The translations under genes were made by a program, and so were the position numbers. Shown here piece after piece: positions 3,216 through 5,225 of a DNA stretch of 64,000 nt. The notes under the pieces are model-generated. The model was not told where the DNA came from, did no database searches, and worked only from the letters and a program-made list of their open reading frames with translations. The stretch's first letter is position 1. Every line of letters begins with the position of its first letter. Source of the DNA: Natrinema salaciae (lineage in GTDB: Archaea > Halobacteriota > Halobacteria > Halobacteriales > Natrialbaceae). The DNA lies in assembly GCF_900110865.1 (NCBI RefSeq), contig NZ_FOFD01000001.1, positions 310,001 through 374,000 of the forward strand, given 5' to 3'.

Positions 3216-3324
3216 CGCGCGGGTCATCTCGAACTGGTCGCCCGCGGCTCGGCGGTCGGTGCTCGCGTCCCCGCTGCCCGGTCGCTCCGCTCGAGTAGGC
3301 GCTCCTTTCGGCATATTAGCAGTA

Positions 3325-3332
3325 GATATAAG
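3325..3332 (+). promoter_or_regulatory. TATA box of candidate structured RNA
   Basis: GATATAAG lies in an AT-rich island (3311-3342). The spacing to position 3353, where the folded RNA begins, is about 25 nt, the usual archaeal TATA-to-start distance. No protein start lies at this distance, which argues for a non-coding transcript. Confidence 0.55.
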
Positions 3333-3352
3333 TCACAATAGGTCAACGAGTA

Positions 3353-3459
3353 GAACGGAAGCCGGTCTCCTCGGGGACGGTATCGAAACGTCCCGGGTGG
3401 GGCAAGCACCCGAGACTGGCTTCCAAACCCGGAAGGGTTCAGGAGCCATGCTTACGTTC
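3353..3459 (+). ncRNA. Candidate structured RNA with multi-branched fold
   Basis: Hand folding gives nested helices that chance would rarely produce. The ends GAACG (3353-3357) and CGTTC (3455-3459) pair. A 13-bp helix pairs 3357-3369 with 3412-3424 (one G-U); position 3357 is shared, so one of the two helices frays there. Inside it are two hairpins: 3374-3379 with 3389-3394 (6 bp) and 3395-3399 with 3407-3411 (5 bp), forming a three-way junction. A further hairpin, 3426-3430 with 3435-3439, is capped by GGAA, a GNRA tetraloop. A TATA box sits at the right distance upstream. It does not match my recollection of tRNA, 5S, RNase P, SRP, TPP or fluoride RNAs. It lies ahead of a zinc-ribbon gene and a dihydroorotase-like gene, so it may be an sRNA or a leader element. 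Confidence 0.55.
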
Positions 3460-3466
3460 AAACTAC

Positions 3467-3484
3467 CGGGATATAAACATCCCG
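3467..3484 (+). promoter_or_regulatory. Inverted repeat enclosing a TATA-like box
   Basis: CGGGAT and ATCCCG form perfect 6-bp arms around ATAAAC, so a TATA-like TATAAA straddles the arm and the loop. It could be the promoter of the zinc-ribbon gene at 3561 (start near 3500, leader about 60 nt), with the palindrome acting as an operator. It could instead be the 3' hairpin of the structured RNA just upstream. Confidence 0.4.
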
Positions 3485-3560
3485 CACGACAACGGAATCG
3501 CCCGACACGAGGAGCCTCGAGTCCGGTTTTCGAATTGCGAGGGATCGCGGAGGAGTCCGG

Positions 3561-3776
3561 ATGAGCGACGGCGACGAAGCGGGCGACGACACCAACAAGG
3601 CGGGCGACGACACCGACGAGGTGGCCGTCTTCGTCGAGCCGGCACCGGTCTCCGTCTGCCCGCGCTGTGGCGATCCGGTTTCCTTCGCCGTCGTCACCCC
3701 TCCGGAGAGCGGGACGCTCGAGCCGTGTGGCTGTGGGATGCCGCCCGACCTGCTCGAGCAGGTTCGCGGGGGCTGA
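3561..3776 (+). CDS. Small CPxCG-type zinc-finger protein (71 aa)
   Basis: The N-terminal 25 residues are acidic and low complexity (repeated GDDT). The C-terminal part has CPRCG followed about 25 residues later by CGCG, giving four cysteines able to bind one Zn2+. Haloarchaea encode many such very small zinc-finger proteins; most are of unknown role and some affect motility, biofilm or stress. An SD-like GGAG precedes ATG 3561. It is followed after 84 bp by the amidohydrolase gene, so co-transcription is possible. Confidence 0.7.
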   Translation: MSDGDEAGDDTNKAGDDTDEVAVFVEPAPVSVCPRCGDPVSFAVVTPPESGTLEPCGCGMPPDLLEQVRGG

Positions 3777-3860: not shown

Positions 3861-5225
3861 ATGACCGTCGACCTCGTGGTGCGCAACTGTACCGTCGTGA
3901 CGCCCGCCGGGCGGACGCCCGACGCGGGCGTCGCCGTCGAGGACGGTGAGATCGTCGCCGTCGGCCGGAGCGACCGCCTCCCCGACGCGGATCGCGTCCT
4001 CGACGCCGAGGGGAACGTTCTGGTCCCCGGAATCGTCGACTGCCACATCCACAACCGCGAACCCGGGCTCGAGTACAAGGAGGACTGGGAGTCCGCGACG
4101 CGGGCGGCGGCCGCCGGCGGCGTGACGACCGTCGTCGGAATGCCGAACACGGACCCGGTCATCGACCGGCCCGAGCACCTCGAGCTCAAGTTCGAGCGCG
4201 GCGAGGCGTCGGCCCACGTCGATTTCCAGAGCTACGCCGTCGTCACCTCGGAGAACCTCGAGTTGATCCCCGAGATCGCCGAGGTCGGCCCGCTCGGGTT
4301 CAAGATCTTCCTCGGCTCGACCGTCGGTGACGTGCCGCCGCCGAACGACGGCGAGATACTCGAGGCGATGGAGCGCATCCGCGAAACGGGCAAACGGCTC
4401 GGCTTCCACGAGGAGAACGGCGAGATCATCGACTACTACACGGAGCGGTTCAAAGCCGCGGGGCGAAACGAGCCGATCGACCACTCCCACTCCCGTCCCG
4501 TGATCGCCGAGCGGGAAGCCGTCGAGCGGATGATCACCTTCGCCGAGGAGACCGGCGCGAAGATCCACATGTTCCACGTCTCGTCGGGGTCGGCCGCCGA
4601 GGCCGTCGCCCGCGGGAAGTCCCGCGGCGTCGACGTCACCGCCGAGACGACGCCCCACTACCTCTGGTTCACCGAGGACGTCGTGCGCGAGAAGGGCAAC
4701 GTCGCCCGCGTCCAGCCGCCGATCCGGGACGCCGCGGAGCGCGACGCGCTCTGGGACGCGGTCGACGACGGCACGATCGACTGCATGGCGACCGACCACG
4801 CGCCCCACACCCCGGAGGAGAAAAAGGTCGACGACCCGTTCGGCAACACCTGGGACGCCATCTCGGGGTTCGTCGGCCTCGAGACCGAAGTGCCGGCGAT
4901 GCTCACCTTCGTCGATCGGGGTCGGTTCACGCTCGAGGAGTGGGTCCACCGACACTCGACGCGCCCGGCCCAGGTCTGGGGGATGTACCCGCAGAAGGGA
5001 TCGCTGCAGGTCGGTACCGACGCCGACTTCACGATCGTCGATCCGGATCGGGAGTGGACGCTCGAGGACCGGACGGACTTGCACTCGAAGAACTGCGTCA
5101 CGCCGTTCGAGGGCGAGTCCTTCACCGGCAAGGCGGTCGCGACGGTCGTCCGCGGCGCGGTCGTGGCCGAGGACGGCGCGGTCGTCGGCGAGTCGGGACA
5201 CGGAACGCGCGTGGACGTCGACTGA
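3861..5225 (+). CDS. Dihydroorotase/allantoinase-family cyclic amidohydrolase
   Basis: A 454-residue metal-dependent amidohydrolase. A binuclear metal centre is complete: His62 and His64 (HIH), Lys148 in GFKIFLG (the lysine that becomes carboxylated), His183, His239 (HMFHVSS) and Asp312 in MATDHAPHT. This family opens cyclic amides such as dihydroorotate, allantoin or hydantoins. The first motif reads HIHNREPG, whereas classical dihydroorotase has HVHLREPG. Dihydroorotase is the most likely call because REPG and the MPNT loop are kept, but a paralogue acting on another cyclic ureide is possible. pyrD lies 1.6 kb downstream on the opposite strand, which weakly supports a pyrimidine role. ATG 3861 is preceded by a short leader. 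Confidence 0.78.
   Translation: MTVDLVVRNCTVVTPAGRTPDAGVAVEDGEIVAVGRSDRLPDADRVLDAEGNVLVPGIVDCHIHNREPGLEYKEDWESATRAAAAGGVTTVVGMPNTDPVIDRPEHLELKFERGEASAHVDFQSYAVVTSENLELIPEIAEVGPLGFKIFLGSTVGDVPPPNDGEILEAMERIRETGKRLGFHEENGEIIDYYTERFKAAGRNEPIDHSHSRPVIAEREAVERMITFAEETGAKIHMFHVSSGSAAEAVARGKSRGVDVTAETTPHYLWFTEDVVREKGNVARVQPPIRDAAERDALWDAVDDGTIDCMATDHAPHTPEEKKVDDPFGNTWDAISGFVGLETEVPAMLTFVDRGRFTLEEWVHRHSTRPAQVWGMYPQKGSLQVGTDADFTIVDPDREWTLEDRTDLHSKNCVTPFEGESFTGKAVATVVRGAVVAEDGAVVGESGHGTRVDVD

Follow-up and report, generated by a model that had tools for sequence, protein, structure and literature searches.

The window analyzed here is a stretch of 64,000 nucleotides from Natrinema salaciae (RefSeq assembly GCF_900110865.1, contig NZ_FOFD01000001.1, positions 310,001 to 374,000), and the locus of interest consists of a TATA-like box, a structured RNA, two small open reading frames, namely ORF1 and ORF2, and an amidohydrolase gene (3861–5225, PF01979). 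The stop codon of ORF1 (TGA, 3562–3564) overlaps the ATG of ORF2 at 3561, and the two public records examined carry no annotation for either frame. ORF2 could not be assigned with confidence to a family of Pfam or NCBIfam. The amidohydrolase gene is a neighbor of the window copy only; the downstream neighbors vary at the other copies of the element. The features are collected in Table 1.

Table 1. Features of the leader and of the small operon behind it (window coordinates)
Feature	Position	Strand	Evidence
TATA-like promoter box TAGATATAAG	3323–3332	+	TAG.TATAAG conserved at the equivalent position of 34 aligned copies
Structured 5′ leader RNA	3353–3447	+	z = −4.02; covariance models R1 and R2; 15 of 20 pairs covary in 95 sequences
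P1, 5′ strand GGAAGCCGGTCTC	3357–3369	+	MFE fold and covariation
Hairpin H1, pairs 3374–3379/3389–3394; GAAA(C/U)G conserved on the 3′ side	3374–3394	+	fold, covariation
Hairpin H2, pairs 3395–3399/3407–3411; near-invariant GGGUG/CACCC stem, hypervariable loop	3395–3411	+	99.4% of cells paired
P1, 3′ strand (middle strand), common to P1 and the competing helix	3412–3424	+	fold and strand-sharing counts
Extended hairpin P3ext, 3418–3423/3442–3447 plus 3426–3430/3435–3439; mutually exclusive with P1	3418–3447	+	
ORF1, 38-aa basic peptide MLTFKLPGYKHPARQRN..., unannotated	3448–3564	+	conserved ORF in 36/36 genus copies
Possible small hairpin P4 within ORF1, CGGGA-UAUAAACG-UCCCG	3467–3484	+	modest excess of pairing over shuffles
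ORF2, 71-aa CPxCG...CGC zinc-ribbon protein	3561–3776	+	15 genome matches, 14 behind a leader

The initial annotation of this stretch had proposed a new structured RNA transcribed from a promoter of its own, lying upstream of a zinc-ribbon gene and a dihydroorotase-like gene, and most of this proposal was borne out: both genes are present as ORF2 and the amidohydrolase, and the MFE fold of 3345–3470 reproduces exactly the 13-bp helix with two hairpins inside it (here P1, H1, and H2), as well as the GNRA-capped hairpin that follows at 3426–3430/3435–3439, with GGAA as the cap. The fold has an energy of −57 kcal/mol compared with −42.1 ± 3.7 kcal/mol for shuffles, none of which, out of 200, equaled it. 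The TATA box was likewise found where it had been placed, about 25 nt on the 5′ side of 3353, the approximate position at which, judging from this box, the leader transcript would start; among 166 relatives, A+T richness is highest 25–29 nt before the first paired base. One part of the proposal failed, i.e., the pairing of the outer ends over 5 bp (GAACG/CGUUC), which, when scored as four pairs in 34 relatives, gave 0 compensatory cells, with shuffles performing equally. Not mentioned at that stage were the start codon at 3448, the 38-aa reading frame overlapping the zinc-ribbon start, the helix competing with P1, and the multi-copy nature of the element.

The RNA matches none of the known families: searches against Rfam (release 15) returned 0 matches at the gathering threshold in the window and 0 at E ≤ 10 around the element, and the sole match obtained with ten relatives, diverged ones included, was to an unrelated tRNA. 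No description of this leader was found in Rfam or in the open-access literature searched. Within its own order, the element is abundant. The covariance model R1, whose E-values are rough, detects 14 leaders in the home genome and has matches in 81 of 125 Natrialbaceae genomes, covering 23 of 29 genera, while blastn against the home genome and 40 relatives located it in 23 of these 41 genomes, usually in several copies each; the highest number is 33 leaders in one genome. Scanned with a DNA pattern, named genomes of Natrinema, Natrialba, Halopiger, Halovivax, Halostagnicola, Natronorubrum, and further genera, all of them Natrialbaceae, proved to contain it. Other families of the order have weaker relatives, and all the matches in a sample of 393 genomes from the phylum are confined to this order. 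The leader was not found in IMG/VR or in phage records, and a viral origin was rejected for this reason.

The initial annotation had suggested looking for homologues in which the 13-bp helix shows compensatory changes, and these exist. In an alignment of 95 relatives drawn from several families, both sides have changed in 15 of the 20 pairs of P1, H1, and H2, giving 139 both-side cells where shuffles give 28 (0 of 500 as good), and the signal collapses when the helices are slid. The copies counted are related and not independent, and the fitting of this alignment to the model makes the counts lean towards it. An alignment made within the genus by MAFFT, and not fitted to the model, gave 12 compensatory cells against 3.4. 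These covarying helices, the near-invariant H2 stem, and the conserved GAAA of H1 together form an aptamer-like core of the kind that characterizes riboswitches. The H2 stem carries 110 distinct loops, and the idea that the loop acts as a copy-specific address was discarded, as two copies sharing the same neighbors, L034 and L026, differ in it.

Regarding its position, the element directly adjoins the ATG at 3448–3450, and the same arrangement, with an ATG beginning precisely where the structure stops, as expected of a leader directly upstream of a coding region, is found in 171 of 173 relatives, a set from which two loci (L033 and L080) with ACG or AGG in place of ATG were left out. In the window, no U-run terminator is visible between the structure and the reading frame. 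Moreover, a protein profile finds 15 zinc-ribbon matches in the home genome, 14 of which immediately follow the 14 leaders that the RNA model detects independently. The fifteenth, L381 (G000:C3:70583-70726), is a degraded remnant with neither a leader nor the first Cys pair; all the intact copies of ORF2 thus have a leader, 14 to 14. The element forms the 5′ leader of an operon with two small-protein genes, and, of the two roles initially offered for it, sRNA or leader element, the second stands while the first is unsupported because of the abutting ATG, the lack of a visible terminator, and the 14-to-14 pairing. A stand-alone sRNA would have explained the dedicated TATA-like box and the stable fold, but a transcript independent of ORF2 is not what the linkage in the home genome describes, and we consider this reading very improbable. 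The many copies per genome and their differing neighborhoods could also indicate a DNA-level repeat, such as a non-autonomous transposon dispersed by a transposase and devoid of RNA function. Such a repeat, however, does not account for the compensatory base-pair changes, the conserved promoter spacing, or the constant presence of a reading frame behind the copies; in addition, one pair of copies (L117 and L130) retains the same neighbors between species, and the copies are mostly 70–90% alike instead of near-identical, so that this explanation appears extremely unlikely. Collectively, these data define what is very probably a haloarchaeal family of cis-acting 5′ leader RNAs, present in multiple copies and spread across the order, and a candidate for a new, widespread cis-regulatory RNA family.

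The layout of the two reading frames behind the leader suggests coupling. In 36 of 36 copies from the genus, ORF1 has 35–47 codons (with ACG as the start in L033) and a stop that overlaps, or nearly overlaps, the start of ORF2; family-wide, the overlap occurs in 92 of 109 copies and in two relative frames, represented by 52 and 40 copies. This is as translational coupling predicts, and a non-coding spacer would not keep such an arrangement. The first 20 codons of ORF1 are not conserved as protein, with a pN/pS of 0.95 overall and 1.26 within the genus, compared with 0.66 for the Cys region of ORF2; on these grounds a conserved peptide was rejected, and the start of ORF1 is instead conserved at the nucleotide level. 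Codon 10 is AAA in 109 of 109 copies. A second promoter at the TATAAA within ORF1 was considered and dismissed, because the bases preceding the invariant AAA vary to CAT, CTT, and CAA, which do not suit a TATA box. The hairpin P4, of 5 bp, is paired in 477 of 545 cells against 458 in shuffles (maximum 465), with CGAGA/UCUCG among its variants. From these sequences, ORF1 seems to be translated for the sake of coupling, with a start that also bears a nucleotide-level signal. As separate observations, codons with A or T in the third position are frequent at the start of ORF1, and P4 resembles H1, AAACGUCCCG being found in both.

The genes behind the leader differ among lineages. In the Natrialbaceae, the leader precedes ORF1 and the CPxCG ribbon, whereas in Haladaptatus it precedes SWIM zinc-finger genes, which carry this annotation in plasmids, with an SprT-like gene following at least one of them. 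In several other families, the leader is followed by Cys-rich, RAMP-like, weakly Cmr3-similar, DEDDh/RNase H-like, and HNH proteins. Most of the first proteins of these operons, but not all of them, are Cys-rich.

The feature that gives the leader its possible function is a strand with two partners. The segment 3418–3424 of the middle strand (GGCTTCC, or GGCUUCC in the RNA) is able to pair either with the 5′ strand of P1 or with 3442–3447, which ends at the base preceding the ATG. At least four middle-strand nucleotides are shared by P1 and P3ext in 165 of 166 leaders, and, when the region is folded alone, a hairpin reaching the base before the ATG is obtained in 150 of 166 (at least four of the last six nucleotides paired). 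This architecture recurs before unrelated genes in other lineages, where both partner strands track the type of the middle strand (GGC, GGT, or GGG): Natrinema has the set GGAAGCC/GGCTTCC/GGAGCC-ATG, Haladaptatus has GGAAGA.C/GGTCTTCC/GAAGACC-ATG, and elsewhere GGGTTCC is found with GAACCC-ATG. At position −3, the three strands form sets such as GCG, ATA, and CGC. For the 54 leaders with a middle strand other than GGCTTC, pairing with their own 3′ strand has a mean energy of −7.9 kcal/mol compared with −4.3 kcal/mol for foreign ones, and a median of 3% of the foreign strands equal it. The inner stem of P3ext covaries within the genus (14 cells against 2.9). Its basal helix shows no excess over shuffles in fixed-column covariation, because the registers differ between lineages and scarcely vary within one. 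Averaged over the leaders, the bases before the AUG are only half free in the full-length RNA (0.33 in the window copy), and in silico deletion of the 5′ strand leaves positions −6 to −1 with a mean unpaired probability of 0.17 instead of 0.48. State A, with P1 formed, is favored over state B, with P3ext, by 8.4 kcal/mol on average, so that switching needs either a strong effector or co-transcriptional kinetics.

A mechanism can be proposed on this basis. Transcription would begin from the promoter about 25 nt upstream of the leader, and the first ~95 nt of the mRNA would fold as a three-way junction of P1, H1, and H2, with the start codon of the first reading frame directly after it. The middle strand of P1 may instead pair with the strand ending just before the AUG, giving P3ext. 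With P1 formed, the bases before the AUG would be free and translation presumably on; with P3ext formed, a stable hairpin would be jammed against the AUG and translation presumably off. Translation of the first reading frame would then be coupled to that of the overlapping zinc-protein frame, and a ligand or a protein bound at the junction, possibly through the conserved GAAA of H1 and the near-invariant H2 stem, could select the state. The comparisons tip, if only slightly, towards a real two-state translational switch, and the account as a whole, i.e., a leader family with a P1/P3ext switch and coupled translation, we hold to be reasonably probable. As for the trigger, a common ion, metabolite, or trans-acting protein is likelier than each protein binding its own leader.

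Against the switch stands a static leader, whose three-way junction would protect the mRNA or fix the level of translation without regulating it; the likeness of the 5′ and 3′ strands would then arise because both pair with the middle strand during folding. The large advantage of state A, the basal P3ext helix that does no better than shuffles, and the fact that no effector is known all agree with this explanation, but it has no need for a third strand that tracks the middle strand across lineages, nor for one that always ends at the base before the AUG, and we regard it as unlikely, though worth serious consideration. Autoregulation is one form that the trigger could take, and it is compatible with the switch: in the manner of ribosomal proteins, the small zinc protein encoded downstream would bind its own leader at the junction and thereby stop its own translation. 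Autoregulation would explain why the genes behind the leader mostly encode putative zinc binders rich in Cys (CPxCG ribbons, SWIM proteins, and a Cys-rich protein before a RAMP-like gene), each intact ORF2 of the home genome being among them; yet the proteins behind the common RNA core are unrelated beyond their Cys motifs, and some of the first reading frames (L105, L363, and L368) have no such motifs, which leaves this form of the trigger a tentative one with the odds against it. Last, the switch may represent a native haloarchaeal riboswitch class, where a small ligand or metal ion at the three-way junction would control dozens of zinc-protein operons, along with a RAMP-containing CRISPR-like operon, by means of a hairpin abutting the start codon and not masking a Shine–Dalgarno sequence. 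This reading we consider rather doubtful, and zinc as the ligand is a guess prompted by the Cys-rich proteins behind the leader.

Known systems offer partial parallels. Autogenous leaders of the ribosomal-protein type are leaders of protein-coding genes with a protein-binding junction, and the element resembles them in preceding a protein gene and in having a junction possibly suited to a protein; it differs in that diverse, unrelated proteins lie behind one RNA. With translational riboswitches it shares a structured 5′ leader and a conserved core, and it has a putative competing helix beside the start codon. In contrast to them, its helix adjoins the AUG itself instead of masking a Shine–Dalgarno motif, it has no Rfam match and no known ligand, and a genome can hold as many as 33 copies. 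The Thermococcus fluoride riboswitch has been described as the only natural archaeal riboswitch determined experimentally (PMC8241225, 2021). The closest parallel for the operon is brz-brb of Halobacterium salinarum, two overlooked tiny genes for a CPxCG zinc-finger protein and a small basic protein on one mRNA, shown to regulate bop transcription (PMC2253796, PMC3184054). Here, a basic ORF1 overlaps a CPxCG ORF2, with a likeness limited to the CPxCG motif and the basic character; the order of the genes, brz and then brb, is the reverse of ORF1-ORF2, and the accessible portions of the same reports do not mention a structured leader (PMC2253796, PMC3184054).

The leader flags small genes that have been overlooked, such as ORF1 and ORF2, and offers a shared starting point for studying the small zinc-finger proteins of haloarchaea, which are poorly understood. 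These organisms mostly lack Shine–Dalgarno sequences, and an order-wide leader RNA before small zinc-protein genes is a way into their translational control.

Some of the loci have additional features. The RAMP-like operon occurs at L357, L358, L369, L355, and L371 (operons in L373 and L374), where its RAMP/Cas7-like protein carries the motif GGARNFGAG and a second RAMP-like protein is weakly similar to Cmr3. Judged from these sequences, the operon is possibly an undescribed haloarchaeal CRISPR-effector-like system; a direct-repeat scan of 13 kb around two of the operons found no CRISPR-like array. A Cas7 identity for the second gene was rejected, with no match in Pfam, NCBIfam, PADLOC, or PDB and an AlphaFold pLDDT of 39, and its RAMP/Cas7 likeness is therefore left as motif-based. 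Downstream of the leader at L134, the translated repeats FNSVVDFLPAAT and FQFRCGFSPCC suggest that a CRISPR array adjoins this copy. In Haladaptatus, about 45 nt upstream of the leader, copy-specific palindrome-like repeats flank the TATA region of L088, L089, L095, L111, L114, and L115, for example, CCTACGTAGG / CCCACATAGG and ACTACGTAGT / ACTACATAGT, an arrangement that would suit a separate operator for each paralogue.
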